This document shows, one piece after another, positions 6,223 to 61,090 of a DNA stretch of 64,000 nucleotides. This stretch comes from Faecalibacillus intestinalis (lineage in GTDB: Bacteria; Bacillota_I; Bacilli_A; Erysipelotrichales; Coprobacillaceae). The stretch spans positions 1 through 64,000 of the forward strand of contig NZ_PYLQ01000014.1 of NCBI RefSeq assembly GCF_003024685.1, written 5' to 3'. The position numbers and the translations under genes are program-made. The notes under the pieces are model-generated. The model was given only the letters and a program-made list of their open reading frames with translations. It had not been told where the DNA came from and ran no database searches. Positions within the stretch are counted from its first letter, which is position 1, and each line of letters opens with the position of its first letter.

Positions 6223-6244
6223 AAAAGCACGTGAGTGCTTTTTT
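6221..6244. terminator. bidirectional terminator between convergent genes
   Basis: AAAAAAGCAC and GTGCTTTTTT pair around a GTGA loop, with A and T runs on the two sides, so it works for both strands. It overlaps the stop codons of both flanking genes. Confidence 0.85.
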
Positions 6245-7058
6245 AAATATCTTTTACTTTTTGAGAAAACTCATCAAACCAATCAGAATGATAATTTTCA
6301 ACATAACCTTGATCAGATAATTGAGTCAATTCACTATCAATAGGTAATTGACCAAGTAATGGAAGTTGATAACGATCAGCCACTTCTTGACTATGACTCT
6401 TACCAAACATATAAATTTTCTTATCACAATCAGGACATTTAACATAAGACATATTTTCAACGATACCAATAATATCGACATCCATTTTTTTAGCCATATT
6501 AACAGCTTTACTTACAATCATCCCTACAAGTTCTTGAGGACTTGTCACAATGATTATACCATCTAATGGAAGTGATTGAAAAACTGTAAGTGGAACATCT
6601 CCTGTTCCTGGAGGCATATCAACAAACATATAATCAACATCTCCCCACATTACATCAGACCAGAATTGTTTGATCATTCCTGCAAGTACGGGACCACGCC
6701 AAATAACTGGTGTATCATTTGATTCTAATAATAAATTCGTAGACATAATTTTAATTCCTTGACTACTTTCAACAGGTGTGAATTCTTTACCATTAGATAA
6801 AACTTGTTTGTTTTCTACGCCAAAAATACGCCCTATAGAAGGTCCTGTAATATCACCATCTAGAATAGCTACTTTATATCCTTCTCTTTGTTTAGCAAGC
6901 GCCAATAATGAAGTTACTGAAGACTTTCCAACGCCTCCTTTACCACTTACAACACCAATCACTTTTTTTACATGAGAATGTGCATTCATTGGTGCTAAAA
7001 AATCTTTTTTTGAACATGTACTTTTACATGAATTACAATCATGATTACAATTAGCCAT
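6243..7058 (-). CDS. mrp: Mrp/NBP35-type ATP-binding Fe-S cluster carrier
   Basis: A 271-aa P-loop ATPase of the Mrp/ApbC/NBP35 family, which binds a [4Fe-4S] cluster and passes it to apo-proteins. The deviant Walker A GKGGVGKSS is near residues 39-47, then DGDITGPSIGR (switch I region), MPPGTGDVPLT, and the C-terminal cluster motif CPDC (near 208-211) at the dimer interface. The N-terminus carries a CNHDCNSCKSTC cysteine cluster, as in NBP35-like forms, in place of the DUF59 domain of longer Mrp proteins. AAGGAGAG precedes the start. It is transcribed alone, divergently from the MATE gene. Confidence 0.92.
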   Translation of the reverse strand: MANCNHDCNSCKSTCSKKDFLAPMNAHSHVKKVIGVVSGKGGVGKSSVTSLLALAKQREGYKVAILDGDITGPSIGRIFGVENKQVLSNGKEFTPVESSQGIKIMSTNLLLESNDTPVIWRGPVLAGMIKQFWSDVMWGDVDYMFVDMPPGTGDVPLTVFQSLPLDGIIIVTSPQELVGMIVSKAVNMAKKMDVDIIGIVENMSYVKCPDCDKKIYMFGKSHSQEVADRYQLPLLGQLPIDSELTQLSDQGYVENYHSDWFDEFSQKVKDI

Positions 7059-7171
7059 ACTACTCTCTCCTTTAACCTCTATACATTATAACCTAAAATC
7101 AAAAAATAAAAAAATAATATGATTGACTTTATATTAAAAACTCTTAATAATTAAATCTATGGAGGAAATTT

Positions 7172-23231: not shown

Positions 23232-23960
23232 GTGTGCCGGGCATGGCACTAATTCAGTTGGAGATAAACCAACCACAGGTATTTACCGCCAAGTGTAATG
23301 AACCACAAGTCATTGTCAGTGATGGCAAGGATGGAGGAAGTGGTGTAGTGATTCTTTTGAGCGTACGAACAGAAACTTGATATAAGGCTAAATGGTGGAT
23401 GAGATTGCATTACAAATCGAAGTCCAAAAGGTAAACGTAAAACCAAGACAGTAAATCAAGACGTTGTAAAAGTTAGAGGATTAGTGAATTACCCCGAGAG
23501 GTTTTGTGGACAACGAATTCCAGTAAACTTTAAAAGCAGTGATGGTACCGTTGGTCGAGAAAGGCTTGTCACAAAAAGTCAGCTGAGGTCGTAGTAGGTA
23601 GGACACACAATACTAAAGGACCTAATGTTTATATGATGTTTACTCATCATAAGCAATGTTTGAACAGTTCGAAATCGAGAATGGTCTCATAATTGGAAAT
23701 CGCAATTCCATGGAGATGAAGGTAGAGGGAATGGTTTCAAATATATTTACGAGTGAAGGAAGAAACAACATGAGATTAATTGAAGTGATATTAGATGATA
23801 AAAATCTAAATGAAGCAGTCAAGAGGGTCAAGCGTAATAAGGGTGTAGCGGGAGTTGATAAAATGATCGTTTATGAAATTCATACGTATTTTCAAAACAA
23901 TAAAGAAAGAATCAAAAAGGAAATATTGGAAAAGAAATATAGACCTCAACCAATTGCAAC
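23232..23960 (+). mobile_element. group II intron, 5' part only
   Basis: It opens with GTGTGCCGGGCATGGCAC, the GUGYG 5' end and first helix of bacterial group II introns. The ribozyme domain I region runs to about 23760, with typical blocks such as AACCACAAGTCATTGTCAGTG, CCCCGAGAGG and GTCGAGAAAGGC. The start of the intron-encoded reverse transcriptase follows. Domains IV (rest) to VI and the 3' end are missing because the sequence switches to a glycosidase gene near 23955. It sits right behind an intrinsic terminator, the habitual target of class C group II introns, but the class is not settled by what I can see. Confidence 0.85.
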
Positions 23961-29950: not shown

Positions 29951-30124
29951 ACGTATATCGGATGATAATGGCGAAAGAGATTCTATAAGAACACCGAAGA
30001 ATTAAAGATTTCAGGTAAAAGGATCGCTATTGGACGAACCATTGGAGAGATTCATTCAATTGAACACCGAAGGAGCAAGCCCGTTAGGGTGAAACTCTCA
30101 GGTAAAAGGACAGTGGCTAAATAG
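29951..30124 (+). ncRNA. tandem glycine riboswitch
   Basis: Two aptamers in series. The first has GGCGAAAGAG, ACACCGAAGAA and TTTCAGGTAAAAGGATCG; the second has GGAGAGATT, ACACCGAAGGAGCAA, AACTCTCAGGTAAAAGGACAG. These are the glycine aptamer signatures, and the arrangement is the usual cooperative pair. The downstream CTAAT-TT-ATTAG hairpin (about 30149-30160) touches the ribosome site AGGAGGAG, so control may be at translation. Confidence 0.93.
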
Positions 30125-39650: not shown

Positions 39651-41567
39651 ATGGCTAAGAGTTTATTTGATAAGACATACATAGGAAAAATGAAATTAAA
39701 AAACAGAATTTTCATGTCACCTATGGGAACGACAGGAGAAGCTGATGGAGCTTACTGTAATGAAGGTATTGATTATTTTGAAGAAAGAGCAAAAGGTGGC
39801 GCTGGTTTAATTATTACAGGTGCTAACGTTGTTTCGACAAAATATGAACCAAGACCATGTACAGAACTTTCTGATTTCCATCATGTAGAAAGATTAAATA
39901 TGTTAATTGAAAGATGTCATGCTTATGGTGCAAAAGTCTGTGTACAATTATCACCAGGTTTAGGACGTCAACAATTTACTGATCCTTTTACACCACCTTA
40001 TAGTGCGGGTAGTGTAGGTGCATTCTGGTTCCCAGATTTAATTTGTAAACCTTTTTCAAAAGAAGATATTCATTATTTAGTAGAAAAAGTAGGGTACAGT
40101 GCTTCACTTGCTGTAAATGCTGGTGCGGACTGCGTTGAATTACATGCGTATGGAGGATATTTATTAGATCAATTCCATTCTGTTCAATGGAATAATAGAA
40201 CAGATGAATATGGTGGAACACTTGAAAATCGTATGCGTTTTACATTGGAATGTATTGAAGCAATTAAAAAGAATGTTCCAGATACAATGCCAGTGCTTGT
40301 TAAATTTACACCACATCAAAGAGTAGAAGGCTTTAGAACCATTGATGAAGGTATTGAAATGGCTAAAATCTTAGAAGAAGCAGGGGTTGATGCTTTACAT
40401 GTTGATACTGGATGTTATGAAGAATGGTTCCAAGCAATCACTACTGTTTATAGTAAAGAAGGATATAAATTAGATGTACAAAAAGCAATTAAAGATATTG
40501 TAAGTGTTCCAGTATTAGGTGATGGTAATTTAAAAGATCCTGAAGTGGCTAAAAAAGCTGTTGAAGATGGTATTTTAGATTATGTAGGACTTGCTCATCA
40601 AATGTTAGCTGATCCATATTGGCCTAAAAAAGTCAAAGCACATCATGAAGAAGATATCGCTCCATGTGTTGGATGTAATGAATGTTTACTTGCTGGATTT
40701 AGTGGAAAACACTACTATTGTGCGGTAAACCCATTATGTTATGCAGAAAAAGCTTATGCTTTACCACTTCCAAATGGTCAAAAACGTAATGTATTAGTTA
40801 TTGGTGGAGGTCCAGCTGGCATGATGGCTGCCATTACTGCAAAACGCCGTGGTTTTGATGTTGATTTATATGAAAAAGAAGATAAATTAGGTGGAACTTT
40901 ATGGCCTGCAGGTGGTCCTGATTTTAAAGCGGATGTTTTAAAATTAATTAAATACTTAGAAACACAATGTAAAAAACTAGATGTGAATATTCATTTAAAT
41001 TCACCTATTACTAAAGACAATCTTGAAGGAGATTATGACAAAGTTATTTTAGCTGCTGGTTCAACTCCTGCTATGCCACCAATTCCAGGTATTGATACCA
41101 CAGTTCTTGCGAGTGATTATTTAACACATCAAGCAACAGTTGGTAAAAAAGTCGTTGTTATCGGTGCTGGACTTGCTGGTACTGAAGCAGCTTGTGATAT
41201 TGCAGGAAAAGATGGAGATGTCACATTAGTTGAAATGTGTCCAGATATCTTATTTACAGCGAACCATTGTTTAAATAATGATCAACATTTAAGAAAAATG
41301 GTTAAAGATCGTGGTGTTAAAGTAGAAGCAAACGCTAAAGTAACAAATATTACACCAACAAGTGTTACATTTGAAAGAGATGGACAAACAATGACGCTTG
41401 AATGTGATACTGTTTTAAATGCTGTTGGATTTAGACCTAATAATCAATTAGAAGATTTATTAGATGAAAAATATGATGAAGTTGCTGTTATTGGAGATGC
41501 TGTTGCACCAAGAAAAATTTTAACTGCAATTCATGAGGGATATCATGCAATCCGTGTGATGGAATAG
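39651..41567 (+). CDS. old-yellow-enzyme-type FMN/FAD/[4Fe-4S] reductase (BaiCD/2,4-dienoyl-CoA reductase-like)
   Basis: A 638-aa enzyme. Residues 1-340 form an FMN TIM barrel (NRIFMSPMGTTGEADG; YLLDQFHSVQWNNRTDEYGG; VLGDGNLKDPE). The cluster motif CVGCNECLLAGF with a further Cys follows near 341-365, and 375-638 hold FAD/NAD folds (VIGGGPAGMMAAITAKRRG; VIGAGLAGTEAA; GDAV). Such enzymes reduce C=C bonds next to a carbonyl with NADH. The length and the YLLDQF stretch recall bile-acid BaiCD/BaiH. The next gene is an SDR alcohol dehydrogenase, so a ring enone could be reduced stepwise. The real substrate is unknown. Confidence 0.88.
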   Translation: MAKSLFDKTYIGKMKLKNRIFMSPMGTTGEADGAYCNEGIDYFEERAKGGAGLIITGANVVSTKYEPRPCTELSDFHHVERLNMLIERCHAYGAKVCVQLSPGLGRQQFTDPFTPPYSAGSVGAFWFPDLICKPFSKEDIHYLVEKVGYSASLAVNAGADCVELHAYGGYLLDQFHSVQWNNRTDEYGGTLENRMRFTLECIEAIKKNVPDTMPVLVKFTPHQRVEGFRTIDEGIEMAKILEEAGVDALHVDTGCYEEWFQAITTVYSKEGYKLDVQKAIKDIVSVPVLGDGNLKDPEVAKKAVEDGILDYVGLAHQMLADPYWPKKVKAHHEEDIAPCVGCNECLLAGFSGKHYYCAVNPLCYAEKAYALPLPNGQKRNVLVIGGGPAGMMAAITAKRRGFDVDLYEKEDKLGGTLWPAGGPDFKADVLKLIKYLETQCKKLDVNIHLNSPITKDNLEGDYDKVILAAGSTPAMPPIPGIDTTVLASDYLTHQATVGKKVVVIGAGLAGTEAACDIAGKDGDVTLVEMCPDILFTANHCLNNDQHLRKMVKDRGVKVEANAKVTNITPTSVTFERDGQTMTLECDTVLNAVGFRPNNQLEDLLDEKYDEVAVIGDAVAPRKILTAIHEGYHAIRVME

Positions 41568-57579: not shown

Positions 57580-57633
57580 TTGACAGTATAGTTAGTCTAT
57601 GCTAACATATAGTTGTGGTTAGCGAAGGATAAC
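57580..57633 (+). promoter_or_regulatory. DtxR-type operator in promoter of the 26-aa peptide gene
   Basis: TTGACA (57580-57585), 17-bp spacer, TAACAT (57603-57608). GTTAG-TCTATG-CTAAC at 57591-57606 covers spacer and -10; a weaker GTTAG/TAAC pair lies at 57618-57633. The same element is repeated at the feo promoter 750 bases away. Confidence 0.78.
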
Positions 57634-57654
57634 TTACAGAAGGAGTAAAGAGCT

Positions 57655-57735
57655 ATGAAAAATAAATTCAAACGCAGCTTGATTGCTCTGGCTTTACAAA
57701 TGAGTGTCATCGTTGCTGCAATATTATTCGTTTAA
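57655..57735 (+). CDS. 26-residue membrane peptide, iron/manganese-type regulation
   Basis: A tiny gene with an excellent ribosome site (AGAAGGAGT) and its own operator-bearing promoter and terminator. The product is a basic start (MKNKFKR) followed by one hydrophobic helix of about 19 residues, with no cysteine or histidine. It could sit in the membrane as a small regulator of a transporter. No family recognised. It lies between the pspA module (divergent) and the dtxR gene (convergent), and its operator ties it to the neighbouring feo locus. Confidence 0.72.
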   Translation: MKNKFKRSLIALALQMSVIVAAILFV

Positions 57736-57738
57736 TTG

Positions 57739-57835
57739 TCTTATGATTTATTTAACTTAAATTAGCCAAATTCCTTTTTCCTATCATAAGATTATTAAGT
57801 GAAGCAAAAGTTTGGTAAGATTACTTACCTTTTTT
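57739..57835 (+). terminator. 3' region of the peptide gene with hairpin and terminator
   Basis: TCTTATGAT (57739-57747) pairs with ATCATAAGA (57783-57791) over a 35-base loop; then GGTAAG-ATTA-CTTACC (57814-57829) with six T ends the transcript. The mRNA is longer in its 3' part than in its coding part. Confidence 0.75.
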
Positions 57836-57846
57836 GTTTATATAAT

Positions 57847-57873
57847 AAAAAATAGCTCGCTGAGCTATTTTTT
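57847..57873. terminator. terminator of the dtxR-like gene (bidirectional)
   Basis: AAAAAATAGCTC and GAGCTATTTTTT around GCT. Confidence 0.88.
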
Positions 57874-58227
57874 CATATGTTCTTTAATTTTATTCATTGT
57901 TTCATCAGAAATAACATGTTCGATACGACATGCATCATTAACAGCAGTGTCATGAGATACACCGATACTTTCAAAAAATGAAGAAAGTGTATCATGACGA
58001 TCATAAATTGTTGTAGCAACTTTTAAACCTTTATCAGTTAATTCAATATATCCTTTACTATCAACAATAATATATTCATCTTTCTTTAATAAACCAATAG
58101 CACGAGAGACACTCGGTTTAGAATAATTAAGCTCATGAGCAATATCTATGGAACGAACATCCTTATTTCTTTTAGATAAAACAAGAATTGTTTCTAAATA
58201 CATTTCTCCTGATTCTTGTAAGTTCAT
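57865..58227 (-). CDS. DtxR/MntR-family metal-dependent regulator, short form
   Basis: A 120-aa regulator: winged HTH (VRSIDIAHELNYSKPSVSRAIGLLKKDEYIIVDSKGYIELTDKG, about 25-75), then the dimer/metal domain (ACRIEHVISDETMNKI; the C-R-x-E-H-V-I-S stretch holds metal ligands). The SH3 domain of long DtxR forms is missing. ATG 58227 is preferred because GAGGTG is six bases before it; GTG/ATG at 58236/58233 lie within or too near that site. It faces the feo operon across an operator cluster, so it should be the Fe(II)-responsive repressor of feo and of the small peptide gene. Confidence 0.9.
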   Translation of the reverse strand: MNLQESGEMYLETILVLSKRNKDVRSIDIAHELNYSKPSVSRAIGLLKKDEYIIVDSKGYIELTDKGLKVATTIYDRHDTLSSFFESIGVSHDTAVNDACRIEHVISDETMNKIKEHMKK

Positions 58228-58307
58228 GTGCATCACCTCTTTGCATATTATACCATATTTTTAACAAGATAAGCAATGAAATCACTTTGCTAAATCAAGA
58301 AAGAGGG

Positions 58308-58422
58308 TTGACATTGATAACGAAATGCAGTATATTCTATTTGAAGTTAGAGAAGTCTAACTATATTTTATGTCTTATAGTTAGCGAATACTAATCAAAT
58401 TAGCATAACCTAATGTGGTTAG
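58308..58422 (+). promoter_or_regulatory. feo promoter with array of DtxR-type operators
   Basis: TTGACA (58308-58313), 17-bp spacer, TATATT (58331-58336). Downstream follow GTTAG-AGAAGT-CTAAC (58346-58361), GTTAG-CGAATA-CTAAT (58380-58395), ATTAG-CATAAC-CTAAT (58399-58414) and a half-site GTTAG (58418-58422). The arms match the TTAGGTTAG-type core of DtxR sites. All lie in the leader after the start point, suggesting roadblock repression. Confidence 0.82.
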
Positions 58423-58452: not shown

Positions 58453-58662
58453 ATGCCGTTAACAATGTTAAACATAGGAGAAACCGGTGAAATCAAAAGA
58501 ATTGGTGGTAACGAAGAAACAAGAAGATTTTTAAATAATCTTGGTTTTGTTGTTGGTGCTGAAGTTGTTGTTGTTTCGGCAATCGGGGGAAATGTGATTG
58601 TTAATATCAAGGATTCTCGCGTTGCTATTAATGAAGATATGGCAAAACGTATCATGGTGTAG
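58453..58662 (+). CDS. feoA: FeoA-domain protein, first copy
   Basis: A 69-aa SH3-like FeoA protein (MLNIGETGEIKRIGGNEETRRFLNNLGFVVGAEVVVVSAIGGNVIVNIKDSRVAI). FeoA assists FeoB in ferrous iron uptake at the inner face of the membrane. AGGAGGTAAG precedes the ATG. First gene of the feo operon. Confidence 0.93.
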   Translation: MPLTMLNIGETGEIKRIGGNEETRRFLNNLGFVVGAEVVVVSAIGGNVIVNIKDSRVAINEDMAKRIMV

Positions 58663-58678
58663 AAAAGGGGGAAGTGTT

Positions 58679-58897
58679 GTGAAACTTAATGAAGTAGAAG
58701 TTGGTAGCACTGTCACTGTTAAGAAAATTGAAGGTGATGGAGCTTACAAAAGACGTATTATGGATATGGGTATCACTAAAGGGGTAGAATTATACATTAG
58801 AAAAGTTGCTCCTCTTGGAGATCCTGTTGAAATTACTGTAAGAGGTTATGAATTATCAGTTAGAAAAAACGATGCACAATGTGTTGAAGTTGAATAA
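58679..58897 (+). CDS. feoA: FeoA-domain protein, second copy
   Basis: A 72-aa FeoA protein starting at GTG 58679 after AAGGGGGAA (KLNEVEVGSTVTVKKIEGDGAYKRRIMDMGITKGVELYIRKVAPLGDPVEITVRGYELSVRKNDA). The frame is open further upstream inside the first feoA, but without a ribosome site. It is closer to classical FeoA than the first copy. Two FeoA before one FeoB is common in Clostridia and relatives. Confidence 0.92.
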   Translation: MKLNEVEVGSTVTVKKIEGDGAYKRRIMDMGITKGVELYIRKVAPLGDPVEITVRGYELSVRKNDAQCVEVE

Positions 58898-58915
58898 CGG
58901 AGGGGAAAGTTAAAA

Positions 58916-61090
58916 ATGAATATTAAATTTGCGCTTGCAGGTAACCCTAACTGTGGTAAAACAACAATGTTTAACGCATTAACAGGTGCTAATCAATATG
59001 TTGGTAACTGGCCAGGTGTTACTGTAGAAAAGAAAGAAGGAAAAGTAAAAGGAAACAAAGAAGATAATATTACTGTTGTTGACTTACCAGGTATTTACTC
59101 TTTATCTCCTTATACATTAGAAGAAGTTGTCAGCCGTGATTTTCTTTTAAATGAAGATCCAGATGTCATTATTGACTTAGTTGACGCTACTAATATTGAA
59201 AGAAACTTATATTTAACAACTCAATTGATTGAAACTGGGGTTCCAGTAGTTATTGCTTTAAATATGGCAGACTTAATTGAAAAAAGAGGTTTAAAAATTG
59301 ACACTAAACGTTTATCAATGGTATTAGGATGTCCTATTATTGAAACTTCAGCTTTAAAAGGAACAGGTTTAAAAGAATTAATTGCTGAAGCTGTTAAAGT
59401 TGCTAAACAAGGTGAACATCAATTACCTCAATCTATCTTTAGTGAAAAGATTGAAAAAGCAATTGATACTGTTGTTCCAGCATTATCTGAAACAATTACA
59501 GCTAATAAGAAAAGATGGTATGCTGTTAAAGTTTTAGAAAATGATGAAAAAGTAATGAATCATATTGTATTAAGTAGTCAAAATAAAACAACAATTGATT
59601 CTTTAAGAAAAGAATTAGAAACTGAATTAGATGATGATATGGAAAGTATTATTACTGATGGACGTTATACTTATATTCAAAAATTAATTTCAACAACTGT
59701 TGAAAAACCAAAAGAAAAATTAACAATGTCAGATAAAATTGATAAAATTGTTACTAACAGATTCTTAGGAATTCCAATTTTCTTAGCTGTTATGTTTGTT
59801 GTTTACTATATTTCAGTAACAACTATCGGTACATTTGTTACTGATTGGACAAATGATGTCTTCGTTGTTGCAATTCAAGATGCTGTATCTGGATTCTTAG
59901 GTTCAGTTGGCGCAAGTAGTTTATTAACTGCGGTTATCGTTGATGGTATTATTGGTGGTGTTGGAGCTGTTATTGGATTTGCTCCTCAAATGGCAATTCT
60001 ATTCTTATTCTTATCAATCTTAGAAGATTGTGGATACATGGTACGTATTGCTTTCGTTATGGATAGAGTATTTAGATATTTCGGTTTATCAGGAAAAAGC
60101 TTTATTCCATTATTAATTGGTTCTGGTTGTGGTATTCCTGCTATTATGGCATCAAAAACAATCGAACAAGATAATGATCGTCGTTTAACTATTATGACTG
60201 CGACATTTATTCCTTGTGGAGCTAAGTTACCTGTTATTGCTTTATTAGGTGGTGTTATGGCTGGTAAAGTTGCTGGTTGGAAAGCTGCAGGATTTATTGC
60301 TCCTGCAATGTACTTCGTAGGAATTGCTGCAGTATTAGTTGCTGCAATTATGTTAAAGAAAACAAAACCTTTCTCAGGTAAACCTGCACCATTCGTTATG
60401 GAATTACCTGAATATCATATTCCTAGTGCAAAAACTGTATTATTACATGTATGGGAAAGATTAAAAGGATTCTTAATTAAAGCTGGTACTATTTTAGTTG
60501 TTGCTTGTATCGTTATTTGGTTCTTATCTACATTTGGATTTGAAGGTGGATCATTCGGTATGGTTGAAGATACTGCTAACAGTTTAATTGCTGCTATTGG
60601 TGATTTCATCGCTCCAATCTTTGCACCTCTTGGATTTGGTAACTGGCAATCTGTTGCTTCTTCATTAACTGGATTCTCAGCTAAAGAAGCAATCGTTTCA
60701 ACAATGGGTGTATTAGCTAATGTTGCTGGAGATCCTGAAGATGCTGTAAACGTTGCTGCTGGTGTAGCTAAATGGTTCCCAACAGGAATGGCTGCTTTAT
60801 CATTCTTAATCTTTAACTTATTAGATTCACCATGTTTAGCTGCTATTTCAACTATGGCAAGTGAATTAAATGATAGAAAATGGTTCTGGTTTGCAATTGT
60901 ATTCCAAAACGTATATGCTTATTGTATCTCATTAATGGTTTATCAAATTGGTTCATTAGTATTATATGGAACATTTGGATTCTGGACTGTTGTAGCGTTC
61001 ATTGTTCTAGCCTTCATGTTATTCATGTTGTTTAGACCTGATCCTTATAAAGATCAAAAAACTTATTCATTAAGATCAGTTGAAGCATAA
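58916..61090 (+). CDS. feoB: ferrous iron transporter FeoB
   Basis: A 724-aa transporter. Cytosolic G domain: G1 GNPNCGKTT (8-16), G3 DLPGIY, G4 NMAD, G5 SALKG; then a GDI-like helical part and the membrane domain with two Gate repeats (GSGCGIPAIMASKTI; LLDSPCLAAISTM, each with a conserved Cys). Takes up Fe(II). GGAGGGGAAAG before the ATG. Co-transcribed with two FeoA genes and small accessory genes, under DtxR-type control. Confidence 0.97.
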   Translation: MNIKFALAGNPNCGKTTMFNALTGANQYVGNWPGVTVEKKEGKVKGNKEDNITVVDLPGIYSLSPYTLEEVVSRDFLLNEDPDVIIDLVDATNIERNLYLTTQLIETGVPVVIALNMADLIEKRGLKIDTKRLSMVLGCPIIETSALKGTGLKELIAEAVKVAKQGEHQLPQSIFSEKIEKAIDTVVPALSETITANKKRWYAVKVLENDEKVMNHIVLSSQNKTTIDSLRKELETELDDDMESIITDGRYTYIQKLISTTVEKPKEKLTMSDKIDKIVTNRFLGIPIFLAVMFVVYYISVTTIGTFVTDWTNDVFVVAIQDAVSGFLGSVGASSLLTAVIVDGIIGGVGAVIGFAPQMAILFLFLSILEDCGYMVRIAFVMDRVFRYFGLSGKSFIPLLIGSGCGIPAIMASKTIEQDNDRRLTIMTATFIPCGAKLPVIALLGGVMAGKVAGWKAAGFIAPAMYFVGIAAVLVAAIMLKKTKPFSGKPAPFVMELPEYHIPSAKTVLLHVWERLKGFLIKAGTILVVACIVIWFLSTFGFEGGSFGMVEDTANSLIAAIGDFIAPIFAPLGFGNWQSVASSLTGFSAKEAIVSTMGVLANVAGDPEDAVNVAAGVAKWFPTGMAALSFLIFNLLDSPCLAAISTMASELNDRKWFWFAIVFQNVYAYCISLMVYQIGSLVLYGTFGFWTVVAFIVLAFMLFMLFRPDPYKDQKTYSLRSVEA

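Follow-up and report, generated by a model that had tools for sequence, protein, structure and literature searches.

A DtxR-type operator beside feo in Faecalibacillus intestinalis precedes a probable iron-sparing RNA that also carries a small membrane-peptide reading frame

Next to the genes for a DtxR-family repressor and the feo operon, Faecalibacillus intestinalis carries a short transcription unit of its own, and the question it raises is whether the product that matters is a 26-residue membrane peptide, the RNA itself, or both. A preliminary description of the window (the whole stretch of 64,000 nucleotides that was analysed) had presented the unit as a stand-alone, metal-regulated peptide gene and had mentioned a role as RNA regulator in passing. 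The promoter, operator, ribosome site, 81-base gene and terminator that it described were all recovered, and with their surroundings they are arranged as follows.

57580-57585 and 57603-57608, plus strand: promoter with -35 TTGACA, a 17-base spacer and -10 TAACAT preceded by TGC (from sequence)
57591-57606, no strand assigned: DtxR-type operator GTTAG-N6-CTAAC, exact match, overlapping the spacer and the -10
57618-57633, no strand assigned: second, degenerate operator copy GTTAGCGAAGGATAAC, with one mismatch
57638-57645, plus strand: ribosome-binding site AGAAGGAG of the peptide gene, nine bases 5' of the ATG at 57655 (from sequence)
57655-57735, plus strand: ORF of 81 bases for a 26-residue one-helix membrane peptide (from translation)
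57732-57798, plus strand: long hairpin with arms 57732-57747 and 57783-57798 and a 35-nt loop (structure prediction)
57760-57767, plus strand: loop module 1 AAUUAGCC, its AGCC part invariant, complementary to start-codon contexts such as AUGGCUAAUU
57770-57781, plus strand: loop module 2 AUUCCUUUUUCC, invariant in six genomes, complementary to GGAAAAAGGAAU, that is, ribosome site, spacer and AUG
57814-57835, plus strand: intrinsic terminator GGTAAG-ATTA-CTTACC-T6
57865-58236, minus strand: gene of a dtxR/mntR-family repressor of 123 aa, convergent with the unit and its presumed regulator (Pfam Fe_dep_repress and Fe_dep_repr_C above cut-off)
58346-58361, no strand assigned: exact operator copy in the feo promoter region, upstream of feoA
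58453-61090, plus strand: feoA-feoA-feoB operon, co-regulated neighbour (FeoA by Pfam, feoB from the deduced sequence)

The product of the ORF is MKNKFKRSLIALALQMSVIVAAILFV; the degenerate operator copy overlaps the expected transcript start, and the 3' part of the unit folds with z = -4.2 relative to shuffled sequences. The full-length unit has a single match in the 2.79-Mb assembly. It is flanked by an unrelated membrane-protein gene and by the convergent repressor gene, after which come feoA-feoA-feoB and FeoB-associated genes.

Six genomes of the genus were compared, namely that of the window (G000), G001, G002, G003, G004, which is Faecalibacillus faecis (NZ_PYLP01000012.1), and G005, which is [Clostridium] spiroforme An567. 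The promoter layout is identical in all six, and promoter and terminator are conserved throughout at the sequence level, as befits a discrete transcript with its own intrinsic terminator; since all five other genomes conserve the unit, its existence goes beyond chance. When peptide and operator were sought near dtxR and feo in these relatives, as the preliminary description had suggested, the unit was found beside dtxR or one gene away in six out of six and the peptide in five; the single intervening gene occurs in G001 and G005. Sequencing-adapter sequence (AGATGTGTATAAGAGACAG) was observed at two contig ends of G001, a public MAG (L006:1-22, L021:1-23), where it cuts exactly through this promoter.

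The operator gives an indication of the signal. Exact copies of GTTAG-N6-CTAAC are found in the window at the unit and at feo only, and 11 such sites occur in the 2.79 Mb of the genome. The unit's operator had been called equal to that of feo, and the motif is indeed the same, but the middle six bases differ and the feo box lies further downstream of TTGACA. Exact sites in this genome also precede flavodoxin, peroxiredoxin and enolase genes and an ABC pair. The longer pattern TTGAC-N6-GTTAG-N6-CTAACAT is present in 27 of 43 genomes of the family, with almost no matches to a reversed control pattern, and family-wide this combination of promoter and operator precedes feoA or feoB, flavodoxin, ABC transporter and fecCD-type genes, the names at these sites being our own, from deduced sequences. 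Tandem operator boxes also occur upstream of flavodoxin and ABC genes in the family. Genes of the feoAB, flavodoxin and fecCD-type transport classes are the classic content of an iron-starvation regulon. Metal regulation of the unit, as proposed earlier, is probable on two grounds: its operator recurs in front of feo, flavodoxin and transporter genes, and the neighbouring gene codes for a DtxR-family repressor. The unit is accordingly likely to be repressed by DtxR and induced by iron starvation. The metal could also be manganese, since the NCBIfam models closest to the 123-aa repressor are those of MntR, with scores below cut-off.

Two further observations concern the regulon. In two species, exact DtxR-type boxes immediately precede enolase (G000:C8:2332-2372, L092/L093; L071 in G005), and this glycolytic enzyme apparently belongs to the iron regulon. 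Another exact box (G000:C2:246493-246508, L088) stands just 5' of a peroxiredoxin-like gene, which is followed by a thioredoxin-reductase-like gene, and oxidative-stress genes may be part of the same regulon.

The RNA and the ORF differ in their distribution. By covariance model and alignment, the 3' RNA (57731-57837) was found in all six genomes. The covariance model retrieved no genomes beyond these from 43 of the family and 196 of the order, under filters so strict that remote relatives could be missed, and a scan of 84,980 species genomes gave five records, all apparently of the Faecalibacillus-type genus; in these collections no homologue outside the genus was found. Searches against Rfam, permissive and at gathering scores, gave chance-level matches and no family at the locus. 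Membership in FsrA, IsrR or a curated Rfam family was rejected, there being no covariance-model match above the gathering score. Elsewhere in the window, an Rfam scan matched tandem glycine riboswitch aptamers (29962-30123) and a group II intron RNA domain (23313-23485).

The ORF is present in five of the six genomes and cleanly missing from G005, which keeps its last codons alone and retains promoter, operator, hairpin, loop and terminator, so that the base-pairing part is separable from the ORF. A ferritin-like gene was noticed close to this ORF-less copy (L107:1697-2212). In the six-genome alignment, the best-conserved transcribed stretch is the loop of the 3' hairpin, not the ORF, and within that loop AGCC(AA/UU)AUUCCUUUUUCC varies at only two positions. 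The hairpin shows few compensatory changes (2 of 20 pairs).

For the peptide, the preliminary description had looked to a conserved frame and a synonymous pattern of substitution, and both were found: in five genomes the frame has stayed at 26 codons, free of indels, and the changes are concentrated at third codon positions (8/4/18 by codon position between G000 and G002, 5/3/10 between G000 and G001). No Pfam or NCBIfam match to the peptide was obtained. A peptide gene is thus probable in these five genomes, but the unit does not centre on the peptide, because G005 retains operator and RNA without it. Given the coding-type substitutions, the peptide is probably translated where its ORF is present, and a role at FeoB is possible in view of their co-regulation. 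Since the loop is best conserved, G005 manages without the ORF and the ORF is coding-like elsewhere, both halves are probably functional, with the RNA as the shared core.

The loop is complementary to GGAAAAAGGAAU and GGCUAAUU, which are ribosome-site, spacer and start-codon sequence; it thus presents ribosome sites with a matching seed that is conserved and unpaired. Exact copies of GGAAAAAGGAAT occur at five sites outside the RNA gene in the window's genome. At three of them the match overlaps the translation start of a flavoenzyme from an Fe-S-type family, namely an FMN reductase whose Cys motif is of the iron-sulfur-flavoprotein kind and two old-yellow-enzyme-type proteins. The exact 12-mer by itself was nevertheless rejected as a target predictor, because the exact seed sites in the other genomes are mostly within genes and few are at starts; these few include a conserved flavoenzyme (G003), an aldo/keto reductase (G004) and a MATE transporter (G002).

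Duplex energies were calculated for a 1.25-Mb sample that covers about 45% of the genome and contains about 900 gene starts, as called by a simple script; other genomes were likewise examined in samples. Genes with Fe-S motifs, a label guessed from cysteine motifs, pair 3.1 kcal/mol better than the rest, as compared to 1.0 +/- 0.5 for shuffled loop RNAs, none of 300 of which reach 3.1. After removal of two stretches chosen for exact sites, the difference is 3.0 (p = 0.0001). In windows covering the whole transcript the bias peaks exactly at the loop (57759-57785), and it is absent with the 16S anti-Shine-Dalgarno sequence as control. By Pfam, about 9 of the top 30 genes are iron-linked versus 1 of 30 SD-matched controls (a radical-SAM protein), with labels in both groups assigned by us and not blind. 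The iron-linked genes encode Mrp, a BaiCD-like Fe-S flavoenzyme, three FMN-reductase-type flavoproteins with Cys motifs, an Fe alcohol dehydrogenase, a 4Fe-4S pyridine-nucleotide oxidoreductase, a 4Fe-4S aldo/keto reductase and a HypB/CobW-type protein; several predicted targets are paralogues and therefore not independent observations. Non-iron genes also score well, including NusA, a GntR regulator and DNA polymerase III alpha. Predicted targets within the window are:

6243-7058, minus strand: predicted lead target, Mrp/ApbC-type Fe-S carrier (Pfam, NCBIfam), -24.7 kcal/mol, rank 1
39651-41567, plus strand: predicted target, BaiCD-like Fe-S flavoenzyme of the old yellow enzyme family, -20.1 to -20.8 kcal/mol

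Pairing with Mrp is predicted over about 7049-7072, which covers the ribosome site, the AUG and codons 2-4. With the RNA of the respective species, this duplex is predicted in all six, and it scores better than 98.7-100% of shuffled RNAs; Mrp ranks 1 of 889 in G000, 1 of 492 in G005 and 3 of 239 in G002. It is also the best joint match among 138 (G005) and 54 (G002) orthologue pairs, by 4 and 8 kcal/mol, respectively, and this conservation of pairing is partly conservation of the Mrp leader. The BaiCD-like site is retained in G003 and G004 and weaker in G002. The Fe-S enrichment found in the window's genome is weaker in G005 (p = 0.13; 4 of 120 shuffles reach the observed value) and thin in G002, where it rests on three genes. 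A DUF362-like 4Fe-4S protein (our label) comes first in G002 and fifth in G005, and rubrerythrin-like and aconitase genes rank high in G005. Aconitase is a classic target of iron-sparing sRNAs; it was rejected as a conserved target, with -20.5 in G005 but -9.4 in the window's genome. With its conserved unpaired loop, the Fe-S pairing bias and the conserved Mrp pairing, the RNA regulator that had figured as a side remark has become the better-supported half of the preliminary description.

From the sequence elements, their conservation, the loss of the ORF in a single species, the substitution pattern and the Fe-S pairing bias, we consider it likely that the unit is an iron-starvation-induced, DtxR-repressed base-pairing sRNA that spares iron at Fe-S proteins and is also coding in five of the six species. 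With ample iron (or possibly manganese), the repressor of the DtxR family would carry its metal, bind GTTAG-N6-CTAAC and block the promoter; when the metal is scarce, an RNA of about 220 nt would be expressed, ending at its own terminator. The long hairpin would expose a 35-nt single-stranded loop with the modules AAUUAGCC and AUUCCUUUUUCC, which would pair with start-codon and ribosome-site sequences in mRNAs of Fe-S and other iron proteins, with Mrp/ApbC as lead target together with Fe-S flavoenzymes. Such pairing would stop translation in vivo and thereby spare iron, and the 5' half would encode the membrane peptide in five of the six species, giving a dual-function RNA with the layout of SgrS/SgrT. 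A more specific version is tentative and in our view rather doubtful: a genus-specific, Hfq-less dual RNA under DtxR control would direct a two-part seed, covering ribosome site and start codon together, against the synthesis of Fe-S proteins, Mrp first of all, and its peptide would address the same iron problem from the membrane, for example through FeoB. If so, one transcript would govern both iron demand and iron supply. No Hfq gene was found in the window's genome by a search that detects Hfq in five control genomes.

The same locus could be read as a small-protein gene, that is, an iron-regulated mRNA whose peptide tunes FeoB or another transporter and whose 3' hairpin is a 3' UTR with terminator. 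This agrees with the good ribosome site, with the indel-free frame and its third-position changes in five genomes (8/4/18 for G000-G002), and with the position beside feo and the co-regulation with it. It is unlikely all the same, as G005 has kept promoter, operator, loop and terminator without an ORF, the Fe-S pairing bias is located in the loop, and the loop is more conserved than the ORF, which is unexpected in a passive 3' UTR. A peptide of the type I toxin kind, controlled in cis by its own RNA, would be short and hydrophobic with a positively charged N-terminus, as this one is, and its ribosome site can pair within the transcript. However, there is a single genomic copy, an antisense gene was not seen, and the peptide is tied to an iron operator and was lost in G005 without other change, which makes this reading highly improbable.

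If the RNA does act by pairing, its main targets may be genes for uptake, regulation or general functions whose ribosome sites are of the GGAAAAAGG type, and the Fe-S bias would then be a by-product of a common leader style. The presence of non-iron genes among the best matches, some of them conserved (NusA, a GntR/UTRA regulator), and the weak bias in G005 point in this direction, but neither the 16S anti-SD control nor shuffled RNAs reproduce the bias and Mrp is the top joint match among orthologues by 4-8 kcal/mol; we regard it as quite unlikely that general targets prevail. Manganese as the signal, with an MntR-like repressor and the unit in a manganese response, is suggested by the similarity of the 123-aa repressor to MntR models, below cut-off as it is. 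It is decidedly unlikely when set against the regulon, which comprises classic genes of iron starvation (feoAB, flavodoxin and fecCD-type transport), and against predicted targets that are Fe-S proteins.

The most economical reading is that of an iron-sparing base-pairing RNA which would work like IsrR, FsrA and RyhB. In the part of its published account on which we draw, IsrR of Staphylococcus is a Fur-regulated iron-sparing sRNA, conserved genus-wide and Hfq-independent, whose conserved C-rich unpaired regions face the ribosome sites of Fe-S enzyme mRNAs (PMC9410917). With IsrR as described there, the unit would share control by an iron-uptake regulator (here probable), pyrimidine-rich conserved single-stranded regions against ribosome sites, predicted Fe-S enzyme targets, conservation across one genus and independence of Hfq (here, no Hfq gene found). 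It differs in that no sequence or Rfam relation was found, in its DtxR-type instead of Fur-type operator, in its one large loop with a two-part seed, and in the conserved ORF of most species, whereas that part of the account reports none for IsrR (PMC9410917). As summarized in the same place, FsrA of Bacillus subtilis is an iron-starvation sRNA whose pyrimidine motif binds Shine-Dalgarno sequences (PMC9410917), and the pyrimidine motif of the unit would be aimed at such sequences too. Unlike the unit, FsrA is Fur-controlled and has FbpA/B/C as helpers, and homology between the two was not detected. MrsI of mycobacteria is controlled by IdeR, a DtxR-family repressor, but it differs in phylum, sequence and architecture, and we know of no coding part in it. 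It is named among the iron-sparing sRNAs in the part of the literature cited above (PMC9410917).

In its layout, with a 5' small-protein ORF, a 3' base-pairing region and a terminator, the unit resembles SgrS/SgrT and VcdRP (PMC8672173, PMC4021124). The sgrT ORF likewise occurs in a subset of species, the pairing region of SgrS being more widely conserved (PMC8672173). Those RNAs answer to sugar or carbon state and need Hfq, whereas iron is the probable signal here, and the encoded product is a single-helix membrane peptide. There is a precedent for an iron RNA that codes, since RyhB of E. coli was reported to encode a nonapeptide, RyhP, with an ATT start and a weak ribosome site (PMC5331693). 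With its 26 codons, ATG start, strong ribosome site and coding-type pattern of conservation, the present ORF goes beyond that case.

A literature search found no paper on an iron-sparing RNA in the Erysipelotrichales, or on one under a DtxR-type operator there. These organisms are common human gut bacteria. Each lineage seems to evolve iron-sparing RNAs of its own, and the present one would show their logic without Hfq and with a distinctive two-part seed. Its peptide, which comes and goes between species, would offer a natural experiment on the assembly of dual-function RNAs. Concrete predictions follow for the duplex at the mrp start site and for the ORF-less relative as a natural mutant.

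A comparable arrangement was seen in another family of the order (G042, L009:1500-1720), where the same DtxR-type box promoter is followed by a stretch without a convincing ORF, with a terminator at its end and a small hairpin whose loop contains ACCUCCUU. No relatives of this candidate were found in 78 genomes of its family, and it may be an iron RNA of separate origin that follows the same logic.
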